Origin: Planotetraspora kaengkrachanensis
GTDB taxonomy: Bacteria > Actinomycetota > Actinomycetes > Streptosporangiales > Streptosporangiaceae
Length of the DNA: 64,000 nucleotides
Direction: 5' to 3'
Assembly: GCF_016862895.1 (NCBI RefSeq)
Contig: NZ_BONV01000001.1
Span: 310,001-374,000, forward strand
The translations under genes and the position numbers were made by a program. The notes under the pieces are model-generated. The model had not been told where the DNA came from, did no database searches, and saw only the letters and a program-made list of their open reading frames with translations. Each line of letters starts with the position of its first letter. The stretch's first letter is position 1. Positions 9,911 through 51,468 of this stretch are shown here, in pieces.

Positions 9911-11092
9911 ATGACATCGCTTGCCATCGCGCAACGTTCTCTCGGGGACGCGGCGCCGACCTTTCCTTTGTGGCCGCCGCTGACCTCCGGGTGCCCCGTG
10001 ACGAGCACCGACGAGCTCGCCTTTCCCCTTGAGGTGGACTACTCCTATGCCGATCTTTCGCGCGAATTCCGCGATGTGCGGTCGGGGCCGGACATCGCAC
10101 GGTGGCAGGAACTGCTGCCGCCCCTGCACGCCCCGACCCTGGGCGAGGGCGGCACACCGCTGGTGGAGCTGGACGGAGTGTTCGTCAAGGACGAGTCGCG
10201 CAATCCGACCTGGTCGCACAAGGACCGCCTGAACCGCGTGACAGTGAGCGCCGCCGTGGGCGCGGGCGCGCCGGGCATCGTGGTGTCCTCCTCCGGCAAC
10301 CACGGCGCGTCCGCGGCGGCCTACGCGGCCCGCGCGGGGCTGGACGCGCTCGTGCTGGCCTCGGCGGAGTCCCCGCCCGCGGTGCAGGACTTCCTGCGTG
10401 CCTACGGGGCGAAGGTGCTGTCCGTGCCGTCGGAGGGGCGCTGGCCGCTGATGCGGCAGATCGTGGAGCGCCTGGGCTACCACCCGGTGAGCAACCTGAC
10501 GGTCACCCACACCGGCCACCCGTTCGGGCCCGAGGGCTACAAGAGCCTCGCCTACGAGCTCCACGACCAGCTCGGCCGCACTCCGGCGGCGGTCTTCGTC
10601 CCGACCGGCTACGCCGAACTGCTCTACGGCCTGTGGAAGGGCTTCCGCGAGCTGCGCGACCTCGGGCTGGCCGAGGGCGCGCCGCGACTGTACTCGTGCG
10701 AGTCGGCGATCAACGCACCCCTGTCGCGGGCCTTCGCCGAGGGCATCGCCGCGGCGAAGATCGAGTACACGCCGGGCTCCCGCGCCTACGCCATCGGCGC
10801 GGCCCTGAGCGGCTACCGTGGTGTCGTGGCGCTGCGCGAGAGCGGCGGCGCGGCCCTGACCGTCACCGACGAGGAACTCGACGAGGCCCAGCGCAGGCTG
10901 GCCGGGCAGGGCCTGTGGGCGGAGCTGTCGAGCGCCGCCGGGCTGGCCGGGTACCGCCGGCTCGGGCAGAGGTTCGACGGCCCGGTGGTCTGCGTCTCGA
11001 CCTCCGCCGGCTTCAAGGACCTGGGCGTCGGCACGGCCCCGCCGGAGACCGTCGATGCTTCCTGGGCCAGCGTCGAGCGGCTGTTCATCTGA
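9911..11092 (+). CDS. threonine-synthase-like PLP-dependent enzyme
   Basis: 393 residues, fold-type II. The PLP lysine is in TWSHKDRL; the phosphate/substrate loop is SSSGNHGASAAAY. Threonine synthase normally makes threonine from phosphohomoserine, but this branch shows SHKDR instead of SFKDR and ends with CVSTSAGFKDLG, and the N-terminal zinc-ribbon cysteines of some paralogues are reduced to one Cys, so a related lyase/synthase activity is possible. The frame is open far upstream, but homology begins at the ATG at 9911. Confidence 0.82.
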   Translation: MTSLAIAQRSLGDAAPTFPLWPPLTSGCPVTSTDELAFPLEVDYSYADLSREFRDVRSGPDIARWQELLPPLHAPTLGEGGTPLVELDGVFVKDESRNPTWSHKDRLNRVTVSAAVGAGAPGIVVSSSGNHGASAAAYAARAGLDALVLASAESPPAVQDFLRAYGAKVLSVPSEGRWPLMRQIVERLGYHPVSNLTVTHTGHPFGPEGYKSLAYELHDQLGRTPAAVFVPTGYAELLYGLWKGFRELRDLGLAEGAPRLYSCESAINAPLSRAFAEGIAAAKIEYTPGSRAYAIGAALSGYRGVVALRESGGAALTVTDEELDEAQRRLAGQGLWAELSSAAGLAGYRRLGQRFDGPVVCVSTSAGFKDLGVGTAPPETVDASWASVERLFI

Positions 11093-44982: not shown

Positions 44983-45060
44983 ACCCCGATCTTCACAGAC
45001 AAATGAAAAGATGCTGTCGGATCGATCCGGCGGTGCGTGAATCCAGCGAGGAGCATTCCA

Positions 45061-46440
45061 GTGGCTGATGGCAGCGGCCCCTTCGACATCGTGATCCTGG
45101 GCGGCGGTAGCGGCGGTTACGCCTGCGCCCTGCGCGCGGCGGAGTTCGGCCTCAACGTCGTCCTCATCGAGAAGGACAAGGTCGGCGGCACCTGTCTGCA
45201 CCGGGGCTGTATCCCGACCAAGGCTCTGCTGCACGCGGCGGAGCTGGCCGACCAGGCCCGCGAGGGCGAGTCCTTCGGCGTCCGCACCAAGCTCGAGGGC
45301 ATCGACGTCCCCGGCGTCCACTCCTACAAGGACAAGGTCGTCAGCGGGCTCTACAAGGGCCTCGCCGGCCTCATCAAGAGCAAGAAGATCACCGTGGTCG
45401 AGGGCGAGGGCCGCCTGTCCGGCCCCAACCGCGTCACGGTCGGCGACCAGGTCTTCGAGGGCCGCAACGTCGTGCTGGCGACCGGTTCCACGCCGAAGTC
45501 GCTGCCCGGCCTCGACATCGACGGCGACAAGGTCATCTCCAGTGAGCACGCGCTGGTCCTCGACCGCGTGCCGTCCTCGGTGATCGTCCTCGGCGGCGGC
45601 GTGATCGGCGTGGAATTCGCCAGCGTGTGGCGTTCCTTCGGCGCCGAGGTCACGATCGTCGAGGCGCTCCCCCACCTGCTCCCGCTGGAGGACGAGTCCA
45701 ACTCCAAGCTGCTCGAGCGCGCCTTCCGCCGCCGCGGCATCAAGTACGAGCTGGGCGCCCGGTTCGAGAGCGTCAAGACCACCGACACCGGTGTGGTCGT
45801 CACCCTGGAGAACGGCAAGACCCTCGACGCCGAGCTGATGCTCGTCGCCGTCGGGCGCGGACCGGTCTCCGCCGGCCTCGGCTACGAGGAGGCGGGCGTC
45901 GCGGTCGACCGCGGCTACGTGCCGGTCAACGAGTACTGCCAGACCAACGTGCCCGGCGTGTACGCGGTGGGCGACCTCATCCCCACCCTGCAGCTGGCCC
46001 ACGTCGGATTCGCCGAGGGCATCCTGGTCGCCGAGCACATCGCCGGCCTGAACCCGGTGCCGATCGACTACGACGGCGTGCCGCGCATCACCTACTCCGA
46101 GCCCGAGGTGGCGTCGGTCGGCATCAGCACGGCCGTCGCCCGGGAGCGGGGTCACGACGTCGTCGAGCTCACCTACAACCTCGCGGGCAACGGCAGGAGC
46201 AAGATCCTCCAGACTCAGGGCGAGGTCAAGGTCGTCTCCGAGCGCGACGGCCGGGTCCTGGGTGTGCACATGGTGGGCGGCCGTGTCGGCGAGCTCATCG
46301 CGGAGGCTCAGCTGATCTTCAACTGGGAGGCCACGCCCACCGACGTCGCCCAGCTGATCCACCCGCACCCCACCCAGTCCGAGGCTCTCGGCGAGGCGAT
46401 GCTGGCTCTGGCCGGCAAGCCGCTGCACGTACACAACTGA
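45061..46440 (+). CDS. lpdA: dihydrolipoyl dehydrogenase (E3)
   Basis: 459 residues. FAD-binding VILGGGSGGY, redox-active CLHRGC in GGTCLHRGCIPTKALL, NAD-binding VLGGGVIGVEFASV, and the C-terminal HPHPTQSEALGEA with the catalytic His/Glu. It reoxidises dihydrolipoamide on E2. GTG start with GAGGAG 8 bases upstream. Operon with sucB (31-bp gap). Confidence 0.95.
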   Translation: MADGSGPFDIVILGGGSGGYACALRAAEFGLNVVLIEKDKVGGTCLHRGCIPTKALLHAAELADQAREGESFGVRTKLEGIDVPGVHSYKDKVVSGLYKGLAGLIKSKKITVVEGEGRLSGPNRVTVGDQVFEGRNVVLATGSTPKSLPGLDIDGDKVISSEHALVLDRVPSSVIVLGGGVIGVEFASVWRSFGAEVTIVEALPHLLPLEDESNSKLLERAFRRRGIKYELGARFESVKTTDTGVVVTLENGKTLDAELMLVAVGRGPVSAGLGYEEAGVAVDRGYVPVNEYCQTNVPGVYAVGDLIPTLQLAHVGFAEGILVAEHIAGLNPVPIDYDGVPRITYSEPEVASVGISTAVARERGHDVVELTYNLAGNGRSKILQTQGEVKVVSERDGRVLGVHMVGGRVGELIAEAQLIFNWEATPTDVAQLIHPHPTQSEALGEAMLALAGKPLHVHN

Positions 46441-46471: not shown

Positions 46472-47974
46472 ATGCCGGTCTCCGTAACAATGCCCCAGCT
46501 CGGTGAGAGCGTTACCGAGGGCACCGTCACCCGCTGGCTGAAGAGCGAAGGCGACCACGTCGAGGCGGACGAGCCGCTTCTCGAGGTGTCGACCGACAAG
46601 GTCGACACCGAGATCCCCTCCCCCTCGGCGGGCTATCTCACCAAGATCATTGTTGCTGAGGACGAGACCGTCGAGGTCGGCGCCGAACTCGCTCTGATCG
46701 ACTCCAACGGCGCGGCCGCCGCTCCGGCACCCGCCGCGCCGCAGGCTCCCGCCGCCGCGCCCGAGCCCGAGCCCGCCCCCGAGCCGGCCCCCGCGCCGGT
46801 GCAGGCGGCACCCCCGGCGCCCGCCGCGCCGCAGGCTCCCGCCCAGCCTCCGGCACAGCCGATCTCCTCGATCCCGCAGCCCGCGCCGGCCGTCGTGACG
46901 CCGCCGCCCGCTCCGGCCCCCGCGCCGAGCCCGGCTCCCGTCTCGCCGATCGCCACCACGCCCGCCGTGGCGCCGACTCCGCTCCCCTCGACGGGCGAGA
47001 GCCCGTACGTCACGCCGCTGGTCCGCAAGCTCGCGGCCGAGCACGGCGTGGACCTGGAGGCGCTGACCGGCACCGGTGTCGGCGGCCGCATCCGCAAGCA
47101 GGACGTCATCGAGGCGGCCCGCGTGCAGCGCGAGCAGGCCGCCGCAGCCGCGCCCGCGCCCGCGCCCGCTCCGCAGGCGCCCGCCGCTCCGGCTCCCGTC
47201 CAGGCGGCGGCCCCCGCTCCGGCTCCCGAGCCGGTCCAGGTGGACACCACCCTGCGGGGCACCACCCAGAAGATGTCGCGCCTGCGCAAGGTCATCGCCG
47301 ACCGGATGCTTGAGTCGCTGCAGACCTCCGCGCAGCTCACCACTGTCGTCGAGGTCGACGTGACGCGTGTCGCGACGCTGCGCTCGCGCGCCAAGGCGGC
47401 CTTCGAGGCCCGCGAGGGCGTGAAGCTGTCGTTCATGCCGTTCTTCGCCCTGGCCGCGATCGAGGCGCTGAAGGTTCACCCGAAGCTCAACGCCGTGATC
47501 AACGACGAGACGAGCGAGGTGACCTACCACGACGTCGAGAACCTCGGCATCGCGGTGGACACCGAGCGCGGCCTCATCGTCCCGGTCGCCAAGAACGCCG
47601 GTGACCTGAACATCGCCGGCCTGGCCCGCAAGATCGCCGACCTCGCGGAGCGCACCCGCACCAACAAGATCGGCCCCGACGAGCTGACCGGCGGGACGTT
47701 CACGCTGACCAACACCGGCAGCCGCGGCGCCCTGTTCGACACGCCGATCCTGAACAAGCCGCAGGTCGGCATGCTCGGCACCGGCTCGGTCGTGAAGCGC
47801 CCCGTCGTCGTGGACACCCCCGAGGGCGAGGTCATCGCGGTCCGCTCGATGGTCTACCTGGCGCTGACGTACGACCACCGCCTGGTCGACGGCGCCGACG
47901 CCGCGCGCTTCCTCACCACGATCAAGCGCCGCCTCGAGGAGGGCCGTTTCGAGGGCCAGCTCGGGCTCGCCTGA
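46472..47974 (+). CDS. sucB: 2-oxoacid dehydrogenase E2 (dihydrolipoamide acyltransferase)
   Basis: 500 residues. One lipoyl domain (residues ~1-77, lipoylated Lys in STDKVDTEI), a long Ala/Pro linker (~80-165), a peripheral-subunit-binding domain ([15 protein letters not shown]...GRIRKQDV), a second Ala/Pro linker, and the catalytic domain with [12 protein letters not shown]. This is the actinobacterial DlaT/SucB protein that can serve pyruvate and 2-oxoglutarate dehydrogenase complexes. Its lipoyl group depends on lipB/lipA 2 kb downstream. Confidence 0.93.
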
Positions 47975-48188: not shown

Positions 48189-49091
48189 GTGGACGAAACG
48201 ACGATCGCGGTGACCGGCTCGTCCGGTCTGCTCGGCTCGGCCCTCATCGAGTCCCTGCGAGGGCCGGGAACCCGGATCCTCAGACTTGTACGACGCTGCC
48301 CGCAAAACCCGGACGAGGCCTTCTGGGACCCGGCGGGAGGGGTTCTGGCGCCCGCGGCCCTGGAGGGCGTGGACGCGGTCGTCCATCTCGCGGGGGCGAG
48401 CGTCGGCGACCGCAGATGGACGCCCGAGTACAAGCGCAAGCTCCTGGCCAGCCGGGTGGCGGGAACCCGCACCCTGACGAAGGCCCTGGCCGTACTGGAA
48501 CGGAAGCCGCGGGTCCTGCTGTCCGGTTCCGCTGTCGGGTTCTACGGCGACACGGGAGACCGGGTCGTCGACGAGACCGCGCCGCCGGGCCAGGGGTTCC
48601 TCGCCGGCCTGGCGCGGGAGTGGGAGCACGCGGCAGAACCGGCGGAGAAAGCGGGCATCCGGGTCGCGCGGCTGCGTACGGGGTTCGTGGTCAGCGGGCA
48701 CGACGGAGCGCTCGGCCGGTTGATTCCGATTTTCAAGATGGGGGCGGGGGCAGTGCTGGGAAGCGGCGGGCAGTACATGTCGTGGATCTCCCTGCCCGAC
48801 TGGGTGTCCGCAGCCCGCTTCCTCCTGGAGGACGAGGGGATGTCGGGGCCCGTCAACCTGACGGCGCCCGAGCCGGTGACGAACGCCGAGTTCACCAGGG
48901 AACTGGCCAAGGCCCTGCACCGGCCGACCATGCCCGTCCCCGCCCCGGCCTTCGCGCTGCGGCTCGCGCTCGGGGAGTTCGCGCAGGAGGGACTCCTCAT
49001 CGGCCAGCGCGCCCTCCCCCGGCGTCTGCTCGACGCCGGCCACCGGTTCGCCCATCCCACCCTCGGAGAGGCACTGGCGGCCGTACTCTAG
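48189..49091 (+). CDS. TIGR01777-type epimerase/oxidoreductase (SDR superfamily)
   Basis: 300 residues. NAD(P)-binding TGSSGLLGSAL at the N-terminus, HLAGASVGDRRWTPEYK, LSGSAVGFYG, and the C-terminal GQRALPRRLLDAG segment fit the family also found as Rv2216 between sucB and lipB. The substrate is unknown; conserved linkage suggests some link to the lipoate/E2 region. GTG start; no clear ribosome-binding site. Confidence 0.9.
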   Translation: MDETTIAVTGSSGLLGSALIESLRGPGTRILRLVRRCPQNPDEAFWDPAGGVLAPAALEGVDAVVHLAGASVGDRRWTPEYKRKLLASRVAGTRTLTKALAVLERKPRVLLSGSAVGFYGDTGDRVVDETAPPGQGFLAGLAREWEHAAEPAEKAGIRVARLRTGFVVSGHDGALGRLIPIFKMGAGAVLGSGGQYMSWISLPDWVSAARFLLEDEGMSGPVNLTAPEPVTNAEFTRELAKALHRPTMPVPAPAFALRLALGEFAQEGLLIGQRALPRRLLDAGHRFAHPTLGEALAAVL

Positions 49092-49121: not shown

Positions 49122-49862
49122 ATGGGCCGGATCGGGCAGTCGCACATCGTCGCGATCGGCGGAGGGTCGTTCCGGCAGACGGAGCGGTACGGCTTCATCG
49201 AGCCGACCGGCCTGCTCCGGTACGTGCTCGACCTCACCGGCGAGGACCGCCCGAAGCTGGGCCTGCTCGCGACCGCGACCGGTGACGACGCCGACTGGCT
49301 GCTCAAGATGTACGGCGCGTTCAGCCGCTGGGACGTCGAGGTCAGCCACCTGACCGTCTTCCCCATGCCGAACGTCGAGGACCCCCGCGAGTGGATCCTC
49401 GACCAGGACGCCATCTACGTCAGCGGCGGAAGCGTCGCCAACCTCGCCGCCCTGTGGCGGCTGCACGGCATCGACGAGGCGTTCGCCGAAGCCTGGCGGG
49501 CCGGCGTCGTGCTGTCCGGCCAGAGCGCGGGCGCCCTGTGCTGGCACGTCGGCGGCAACACCGACTCCTTCGGGCCCGCGTTGCGGCCCTGGGCCGAGGG
49601 ACTCGGCCTGCTGCCCTACTCCTGCGGTGTGCACTACAACTCCGACGGCCAGCGCCGCAAACTGCTGCACGAGTCCGTGGCGTCCGGCGAACTGCCCGAG
49701 GGATACGCCGCGGACGAGGGCGTCGCCCTCCACTACGTAGGCACCGAATTCATCCAGGCGGTCACCGTCGATCCCAGCGGTTACGCCTACCGCGTCGAGC
49801 GTGACGGCGCCGGGGTCAAGGAGTTCCGTATCGAACCTCGTCAGCTGGCCTCTACCCTTTAG
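49122..49862 (+). CDS. peptidase E-like protein (S51 family)
   Basis: 246 residues of the class-I glutamine-amidotransferase-like fold. Nucleophile Ser in SGQSAGALCW, nearby VSGGSVANLAAL and a His in CGVHYNSDG. Peptidase E cleaves Asp-Xaa dipeptides; cyanophycinases are related. GGAG lies 7 bases before the ATG. Confidence 0.87.
   Translation: MGRIGQSHIVAIGGGSFRQTERYGFIEPTGLLRYVLDLTGEDRPKLGLLATATGDDADWLLKMYGAFSRWDVEVSHLTVFPMPNVEDPREWILDQDAIYVSGGSVANLAALWRLHGIDEAFAEAWRAGVVLSGQSAGALCWHVGGNTDSFGPALRPWAEGLGLLPYSCGVHYNSDGQRRKLLHESVASGELPEGYAADEGVALHYVGTEFIQAVTVDPSGYAYRVERDGAGVKEFRIEPRQLASTL
49853..49858 (+). promoter_or_regulatory. -10 box (TACCCT) of lipB
   Basis: TANNNT hexamer 7 bases before the GTG at 49866, inside the last codons of the peptidase gene. 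Confidence 0.5.
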
Positions 49863-49865
49863 TGC

Positions 49866-50534
49866 GTGAAGGGCTTGGCCATCGTCCGGATGGGTGTCGA
49901 CGTTCCGTACGAGCAGACGTGGAGCACGCAGCGGCGTGCGCACGAACGGCGGGTGGCCGGCAGGATCTCTGATCTGTGCCTCATGCTGGAGCACGCGCCC
50001 GTCTACACGGCGGGCAAGCGGACCCGTCCGCACGAGCGGCCGGCCGACGGGACTCCGGTCATCGACGTCGACCGCGGCGGGAACATGACCTGGCACGGCC
50101 CCGGCCAGCTCGTCGGGTACCCCATCCTCCGGATCGACGACGTCACCGCCTACGTGCGTCTCCTCGAGGACGTGCTGATCCAGGTCTGCTCCGACTTCGG
50201 GGTCACGGCGGGCCGGGTGCCGGGCCGGGGCGGGGTGTGGGTGCCGGGCGATCCCGCCGGAGGTCTGGACGACCGCAGGCTGGGCAGCATCGGCATCCGG
50301 GTGTCCCGCGGCGTGACCATGCACGGCTTCTCGCTCAACTGCGTGAACGACCTGAGCTGGTACGGCCGCATCCAGCCGCCCGGCGACGGCGGCGTGACCT
50401 CGCTCACGGCGGAGACCGGACGGCGCATCACCGTCGAGCAGGTCATCCCCATCGCGGGAAAGCGGCTGGCCGAAGCCCTCGGCGCCGAGGCGTACGACCT
50501 GTACGAGGAAGATTTGGCCGAGGTAATAAGCTGA
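49866..50534 (+). CDS. lipB: LipB-family octanoyltransferase lacking the catalytic Lys and Cys
   Basis: 222 residues, full length for LipB and in the usual lipB-lipA order. It has the structural [17 protein letters not shown] motif. However, the catalytic Lys (RKxAAIG in active enzymes) is Arg here (DDRRLGSIG), and the catalytic Cys of the PCG motif is Pro ([13 protein letters not shown]), with the loop about two residues shorter. LipB forms an octanoyl thioester on that Cys to modify E2 and GcvH, so this protein may be inactive or act differently. No frameshift or stop disturbs the gene. Confidence 0.85.
50527..50532 (+). promoter_or_regulatory. -10 box (TAAGCT) of lipA
   Basis: TANNNT hexamer 6 bases before the GTG at 50539; it overlaps the lipB stop. 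Confidence 0.45.
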
Positions 50535-50538
50535 ACGC

Positions 50539-51468
50539 GTGACGGTTGCACCAGAAGGCCGCAAGCTCCTCCGCCTGGAGGTGCGCAACAGCCAGACCCC
50601 CATTGAGAAGAAGCCGCCGTGGATCAAGACGCGGCTGCACAACGGCCCCAACTTCAACGAGATCAAATCCCTGGTGCAGGGCGCGGGCCTGCACACGGTC
50701 TGCCAGGAAGCCGGATGTCCCAACATCTCGGAGTGCTGGGAGGACCGGGAGGCCACCTTCCTCATCGGCGGTGACCAGTGCACCCGGCGCTGCGACTTCT
50801 GCCAGATCGACACCGGCAAGCCGGCCGAGTACGACCGGGACGAGCCGCGTCGCGTGGCCGAGTCGGTGCGCCAGATGGGCCTGCGGTACGCCACGGTGAC
50901 CGGCGTCGCCCGTGACGACCTGCCCGACGGCGGCTCCTGGCTGTACGCGGAGACCGCGCGGCAGATCCACGCGGAGATCCCCGGCTGCGGCGTCGAGTTG
51001 CTCGTTCCCGACTTCAACGGCGACGGCGGGCAACTGGAGGAGGTCTTCTCCGCCAAGCCCGAGGTCTTCGCGCACAACATCGAGACCGTGCCGCGGATCT
51101 TCAAGCGGATCAGGCCCGCCTTCCGCTACGAGCGGTCGCTGAATGTCATCACCCTGGCCCGCGAGGCCGGGCTCGTGACCAAGTCGAACCTGATCCTCGG
51201 CATGGGCGAGGAGCGCTCGGAGATCACCCAGGCACTCCACGACCTGCACGACGCAGGTTGCGACCTGGTCACGATCACGCAGTACCTCCGGCCCACGCCA
51301 CGCCACCACCCGGTGGACCGGTGGGTGAAGCCGGAAGAGTTCGTCGAGCTGCAGCGGGAGGCCGAGGAGATCGGCTTCGCCGGCGTCATGTCCGGACCGC
51401 TCGTGCGCTCGTCCTACCGTGCGGGGCGTCTGTACCAGCAGGCGATCGCCGCGCGGCAGACTCTGTAA
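50539..51468 (+). CDS. lipA: lipoyl synthase
   Basis: 309 residues, radical-SAM enzyme inserting two sulfurs into protein-bound octanoate. The auxiliary cluster [12 protein letters not shown] (C-x4-C-x5-C), the SAM-cluster CTRRCDFC (C-x3-C-x2-C) and the C-terminal RSSYRAG serine are all intact. Four bases separate it from lipB. Its integrity contrasts with the altered lipB. Confidence 0.96.

Follow-up and report, generated by a model that had tools for sequence, protein, structure and literature searches.

A LipB without its catalytic lysine and cysteine, and a second, complete LipB, in Planotetraspora kaengkrachanensis and related Streptosporangiaceae

Introduction

In textbooks the octanoyltransferase LipB is recognised by its Cys/Lys pair. 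In a stretch of 64,000 nucleotides from the genome of Planotetraspora kaengkrachanensis (contig NZ_BONV01000001.1, positions 310,001 to 374,000 of the forward strand), referred to here in its full length as the window, there is a lipB gene, lipB1, in which both residues have been replaced. The locus raises the question of which protein transfers octanoyl groups in this organism, and of what a LipB without its catalytic pair might be kept for. A first-pass annotation of the window had offered three answers: that another ligase or transferase does the job, that the altered LipB works by another mechanism, or that it has become a scaffold.

The lipB1 gene of the window

The starting observations of that annotation were all upheld. 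It had described a full-length lipB in the lipB-lipA context, and the frame, which begins with GTG and encodes 222 residues, ends 4 bases before lipA (Table 1). Five NCBIfam models match LipB1 and every one of them is a LipB model; the scores exceed the cut-offs for NF010925 (268.7 bits, cut-off 155) and TIGR00214 (105.6 bits, cut-off 83.55), while the other three fall under their own. An AlphaFold2 model of high confidence (mean pLDDT 93.2, pTM 0.90) had its best PDB match in 1w66, the LipB of Mycobacterium tuberculosis (TM 0.85, 52% identity), so that LipB1 belongs to LipB by both sequence and fold. The nearest named records are from Planotetraspora phitsanulokensis (93%), P. mira (89%) and P. 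silvatica (88%).

According to an excerpt of PMC9307952 the dyad consists of Lys142 and Cys176 in the M. tuberculosis enzyme and of Lys135 and Cys169 in that of Escherichia coli. Alignment to 1w66 and reading of the codons confirmed the replacement of the catalytic lysine by arginine and of the acyl-carrying cysteine by proline, with Arg138 in the place of Lys142, Pro172 in the place of Cys176 of the PCG motif, and an acyl loop shorter than that of 1w66 by two residues, which are missing after G173. The claim that LipA and the lipoyl E2 are intact also held, LipA scoring 331.1 bits against TIGR00510 (cut-off 310.25) and the E2 containing a lipoyl domain. This E2 is presumed to be a target of lipoylation. 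The frame preceding it appears, from its sequence, to be dihydrolipoyl dehydrogenase-like.

In structural alignments with the LipB chains 1w66 and 2qhs, LipB1 shares the fold (TM 0.85-0.86, 52% and 34% identity), the RGG and HGPGQL motifs, the residues of the substrate pocket and the scores against LipB models. It differs from both in the absence of the dyad, in the shortened acyl loop and in conserved positions of its own near both ends. Chains of the LplA type also share the fold, with lower similarity (TM about 0.6-0.74); LplA uses a lysine for its lipoyl-AMP chemistry, as stated in the excerpt of PMC9307952, whereas LipB1 has no lysine at the dyad position.

Table 1. Positions of the genes and residues discussed (window numbering, except for LipB2)
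Feature	Position	Strand	Basis
Dihydrolipoyl dehydrogenase-like ORF (presumed)	45037..46440	+	open reading frame
E2 of 2-oxoacid dehydrogenase with lipoyl domain	46472..47974	+	domain match
SDR/epimerase with DUF1731 (TIGR01777 family), upstream neighbour	48189..49091	+	family models
Peptidase_S51 gene, upstream of lipB1	49122..49862	+	family models
lipB1, LipB-fold protein without the catalytic Lys/Cys pair, 222 aa	49866..50534	+	family models, AlphaFold2, 1w66 alignment
Arg138 at the catalytic Lys position, codon AGG	50277..50279	+	codon reading, alignment to 1w66 chain
Pro172 at the catalytic Cys position, codon CCC	50379..50381	+	codon reading, alignment to 1w66 chain
lipA, lipoyl synthase	50539..51468	+	sole TIGR00510 match in genome
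LipB2	L250 (G000:C4:348192-363055), 10001-10642		PF21948 match

A second LipB in the same genome

The genome (8.77 Mb, a draft of 96 contigs, completeness 100) contains two PF21948 genes only, lipB1 and a second one on another contig (C4), termed LipB2. The latter is a LipB by NCBIfam, has the Pfam domain in common with LipB1, and carries both the lysine (motif RKIVSVG) and the cysteine (motif IPCGM). The sole PF03099 match is a biotin ligase, and the LplA model TIGR00545 found no match in the whole genome, LipB1 included. One LipA and one GcvH are encoded. In these profile searches no complete octanoyltransferase could be recognised apart from LipB2. The suggestion that the genome be searched for LplA, LipM or a second LipB was thus answered by a second LipB; an LplA or other ligase doing the job was not found. 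That another transferase does the job is well supported, both by this gene and by its occurrence in every sampled genome with LipB1 (see below).

The neighbours of LipB2 are an LPG_synthase_TM gene, a DUF6157 gene, a GrpB gene and a gene with an ABC2-membrane match below cut-off. No lipoate genes were seen among the scanned neighbours in this genome, and the idea of reading the function of LipB2 from them was dropped.

Distribution of the dyad states

A sample of 150 genomes from the GTDB family of the window was surveyed, in which a LipB1 of the window's kind was defined by a score of at least 308.7 bits (the next match reached 266.8 bits). LipB1 was present in 64 of the 150, and each of these 64 also has LipB2. 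When the dyad was scored on one alignment of 233 rows, 11 of the LipB1 proteins had both residues (K+C+), 32 had lost the lysine and kept the cysteine (K-C+), 21 had lost both (K-C-), and none had lost the cysteine alone. The residue at the lysine site of the K-C+ proteins is Gln in 11, Arg in 10, Met in 5, Gly in 4, Ala in 1 and Leu in 1. Among the K-C- proteins it is Arg in 19 of 21 and otherwise Ala, and the cysteine site holds Pro, Ala, Gly, Glu, Asp, Asn, Trp or a gap. LipB2 has both lysine and cysteine in 65 of 65 cases, these being the 64 genomes with LipB1 and one further genome (G021) that lies outside the 64, with a LipB2-like gene (51%) and no LipB1. The most distant LipB2 (G028) is still 54% identical to that of the window's genome. 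Compared with LipB1, LipB2 has the dyad intact, forms a separate clade and lacks the E214-E215 tail described below.

Control sets were uniform. In the family sample, all 24 LipBs that fall outside the LipB1 clade have both residues; these come from 30 loci that were among the best-scoring places rather than a random draw, six of which were dropped because comparison with LipB1 at E 1e-5 showed no LipB-like frame in them. Genome G135, the source of one of the 24 (L112), has another LipB as well, which is 48% identical to LipB2. Both residues are likewise present in 33 of 33 outgroup records and in all 89 LipB loci of a phylum-wide sample (88 genomes of 119 searched; 90 genomes had a match besides the window's own), from which two genomes with split matches, G204 and G256, were left out. 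The 89 of 89 indicate that the loss of the dyad in LipB1 is not a matter of chance. In the sampled material this loss is confined to LipB1.

The distribution can be put into genera with 47 named records of the clade, listed under Streptosporangiaceae, some of which are MAGs and which overlap the 64 genomes and so do not form an independent sample. Both residues are lost in 20, from Planotetraspora (5), Sphaerimonospora (2), Microbispora, Microtetraspora (4 of 5) and one MAG. Loss of the lysine with the cysteine kept is seen in 17, from Planobispora, Planomonospora, Nonomuraea, Sinosporangium and Spongiactinospora, with one each from Sphaerisporangium, Streptosporangium and Microtetraspora. The remaining 10, from Streptosporangium (4), Sphaerisporangium (4), Thermocatellispora and Rhizohabitans, have both. 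The first-pass annotation had proposed looking for the same substitutions throughout related species, and the outcome was positive in a richer form, the lysine having been lost repeatedly and in various ways and the cysteine only on backgrounds without the lysine.

Order of the losses and origin of the two copies

The number of losses was estimated on a tree made by a quick method with the trait columns removed, in which 27 of 68 inner branches were unsupported; on it the lysine changed at least 7 times, or was lost 10 times if it was never regained. The cysteine was lost 3 times on the same tree, always within the largest clade without the lysine (31 rows). In the nine other such clades (22 rows) the cysteine is present in every member, while the residue at the lysine site varies. 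Either the cysteine still did something after the loss of the lysine, or the time has been too short. Since LipB2 is also present beside K+C+ forms of LipB1, its presence alone does not explain the timing of loss. In genus g57 (L174 of G060, L189 of G096) there was a separate loss of the cysteine, with PWG in place of PCG and Ala in place of the lysine.

A second quick tree, of 79 rows, grouped LipB1 with ordinary LipBs, both from the family and from other actinomycetes, and placed LipB2 apart, with support of 97 for each. This grouping makes LipB1 the probable inherited copy; LipB2 would be either a later arrival or a duplicate that diverged long ago. Within the phylum sample the sequence closest to LipB2 shares 47% identity with it, and the separate group of LipB2 may possibly go back to an ancient transfer.

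Neighbourhood of lipB1 and the link to lipA

LipA as well as LipB associates with 2-oxoacid dehydrogenases in E. coli. In 56 of the 64 fetched stretches a lipA gene follows lipB1 on the same strand, at a distance of 1.0-1.2 kb in about ten of them. It was not found beside LipB1 in eight stretches, four with flanks of 2.5 kb and four with flanks of 1.5 kb, which belong to five genomes of genus g33 and to G099, G103 and G127. The g33 genomes, whose LipB1 has Arg at the lysine site and keeps the cysteine, had no lipA within the fetched flank, which was 2.5 kb in three of them and 1.5 kb in two. The absence or distance of lipA at some loci weakens the case for a role of LipB1 that is specific to LipA.

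The loci at which lipB1 is kept with no lipA within 2.5 kb are L181, L182 and L191 of genus g33 and L201 of G103. At L181 lipB1 still has the S51 peptidase gene and the SDR/DUF1731 gene as neighbours, and an SDR/DUF1731 gene is also found upstream of it at L201. In the window the Peptidase_S51 gene itself matches models of cyanophycinase and PepE weakly, in each case below the cut-off.

Conservation of LipB1 and selection upon it

All 64 LipB1 frames are full length (216-256 residues). Three that had been flagged with one TGA (G099, G119, G120) and might have been taken for pseudogenes with an internal stop have their natural end there, at EEDLA, after 217 residues. When 42 deeply conserved columns were defined by at least 97% identity in 100 rows bearing both lysine and cysteine, 33 of them showed no change in any of the 21 K-C- proteins, and a further two differed in a single protein. 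Those that changed are the lysine, the cysteine and the glycine next to it, plus four looser columns (numbered by the window's LipB1), of which T75 is kept in 14 of 21, I90 in 2, R98 in 16 and V124 in 15; I90 and R98 also slip in K-C+ forms. An excerpt of PMC8639206 gives Tyr22, His49, His83 and Tyr91 as the residues that form the substrate pocket in the M. tuberculosis enzyme, and in the 1w66 alignment Tyr15, His43, His77 and Tyr85 of LipB1 map onto these. The four residues, together with R70-G71-G72 and H153-G154, are invariant in 64 of 64, so that the predicted LipB pocket is retained throughout the sample.

LipB1 also has features of its own. At ten positions a residue shared by 63 or all 64 of the LipB1 proteins is found in less than 30% of either outgroup set; V11, D12, E214 and E215 are among them, and each of these four occurs in 0 of 65 LipB2 proteins. 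Positions specific to LipB1 lie within residues 5-17 (49878-49916), in a GVDxPYEQ start, and within residues 214-217 (50505-50516), in an EED tail. E214-E215 is already present in 11 of 11 K+C+ forms, which indicates that this LipB1-specific surface predates the loss of catalysis. Lys199 is invariant in all three classes of LipB1.

Other cysteines were considered as newly displaced catalysts and rejected as such. Cys159 (LNCVNDL), which the first-pass annotation had named as a displaced cysteine that might do the chemistry, occurs in 64 of 64 LipB1 proteins and in 23 of 24 other LipBs of the family, and is an ancestral residue common to relatives with the dyad. Cys38 and Cys108 are likewise found in K+C+ LipB1 (10 of 11 and 11 of 11) and in other family LipBs (7 of 24 and 8 of 24).

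Selection was estimated as dN/dS by simple Nei-Gojobori counts. In the main K-C- clade, which includes 18 of the 21 K-C- genomes, LipB1 had a median of 0.249 and a maximum of 0.341 over 153 pairs, and 136 pairs of the same clade gave 0.165 for LipB2 and 0.126 for LipA; the higher values of LipB1 are as expected under weakened constraint. The four core Planotetraspora gave 0.283 for LipB1, 0.052 for LipB2 and 0.088 for LipA. Among sets that keep the cysteine, values were 0.180 (LipB1) and 0.162 (LipB2) for K+C+ Streptosporangium, 0.176, 0.275 and 0.149 (LipB1, LipB2 and LipA) for a Sphaerisporangium-like K+C+ set, and 0.271, 0.240 and 0.137 for Planobispora/Planomonospora, which have Gln at the lysine site. 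In g33 the median for LipB1 was 0.039, from 10 pairs with few changes, against 0.257 for LipB2. The constraint on K-C- LipB1 is weaker than that on LipB2, yet real. With its catalytic residues lost and the rest of the protein under purifying selection across species, LipB1 has the sequence profile of a pseudoenzyme.

These data bear on the explanation that LipB1 is a redundant copy in slow decay since LipB2 assumed its function, the frame staying open through chance or translational coupling to lipA. What decay might leave is seen in its dN/dS, which in the main K-C- clade exceeds the values for LipB2 and LipA, in the six different residues that have replaced the lysine, in the varying length of the cysteine loop and, for coupling, in the start of lipA so close behind it in the window. 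Decay is nevertheless unlikely, given that no frame is broken, that most of the deeply conserved columns are unchanged in the K-C- proteins, that no K-C- pair exceeds the maximum given above, and that E214-E215 is kept in K-C- forms. Retention by coupling only is argued against by g33, where LipB1 has the low median dN/dS given above with no lipA in the fetched flank, so that LipB1 probably does not owe its retention to a nearby lipA.

Proposed role of LipB1

The reading that we regard as probable is that LipB1 is a non-catalytic paralogue that has kept its pocket, a pseudo-octanoyltransferase, and that LipB2 would be the catalyst of octanoyl transfer. LipB1 would be the inherited LipB of this clade of the Streptosporangiaceae, LipB2 was probably already there at its base, and, with octanoyl-ACP as the donor, LipB2 would supply octanoyl groups to E2 and GcvH. 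No longer needed as a catalyst, LipB1 would have lost the lysine many times and then the cysteine in three lineages, while retaining the acyl/phosphopantetheine pocket. Its most likely role would be that of a scaffold, escort or sensor that binds octanoyl-ACP, octanoylated lipoyl domains, LipA or LipB2. On this reading LipB1 would be without octanoyltransferase activity, and LipB2 would be the working enzyme and old in the clade.

A close parallel is the double mutant K135A/C169A of E. coli LipB, in which the same two positions are removed; an excerpt of PMC9307952 describes it as catalytically inactive and as binding octanoyl-ACP with a KD of 36.4 uM. The mutant was made in the laboratory, whereas LipB1 occurs naturally, and in many species. 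A pocket kept with the dyad gone, as in this inactive, ACP-binding mutant, favours a binding role for LipB1, with LipB2 as catalyst. Lys135 is suggested in the same excerpt to contact the 3'-phosphate of CoA, and by analogy the arginine found at this site in most K-C- proteins could keep a phosphate contact. More tentative, with slightly under an even chance in our estimate, is the full course of events in which the original LipB became a non-catalytic binder of octanoyl-ACP or lipoyl domains beside a working LipB by way of an acyl-holding stage that had the cysteine only.

Alternatively, LipB1 could be an acyltransferase that uses another mechanism, either direct transfer of the octanoyl group to an acceptor lysine within the pocket or Cys159 or Lys199 as substitutes, and possibly serves another acyl group or acceptor. 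The pocket residues are present in 64 of 64, as is Cys159, and Lys199 is invariant; the cysteine is kept in 32 of the 53 LipB1 proteins without the lysine and throughout 9 of the 10 clades concerned, a hint that it mattered after the lysine was lost. Cys159 is ancestral, however, 21 proteins have no cysteine at the acyl site, all 64 genomes have a canonical LipB2, and the corresponding E. coli double mutant is inactive according to the excerpt of PMC9307952, which together make such a mechanism improbable, somewhat more so than decay. A sequencing or assembly artefact, for which nothing speaks except that the assembly is a draft of 96 contigs, has a negligible chance, as no fewer than two base changes separate CCC from a Cys codon (a single one separates AGG from a Lys codon) and both residues are also absent from four other Planotetraspora, which excludes a sequencing slip, and from 16 further genomes. 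Of the three answers offered by the first-pass annotation, that of another transferase is well supported, the scaffold fits the kept pocket and the purifying selection, and the evidence for another mechanism is indirect.

Among the matches listed in the open PMC literature (titles and the starts of abstracts) no natural LipB without the dyad was seen. If LipB1 is indeed a pseudo-octanoyltransferase, the dyad has been dismantled repeatedly in nature and every step has been caught in living species. With all intermediates alive, both the order in which a two-residue active site is dismantled and a non-catalytic role for a LipB, e.g. in bringing octanoylated substrates to LipA, become testable. 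The automatic annotation as octanoyltransferase that follows from the five NCBIfam matches is probably wrong for part of the clade.
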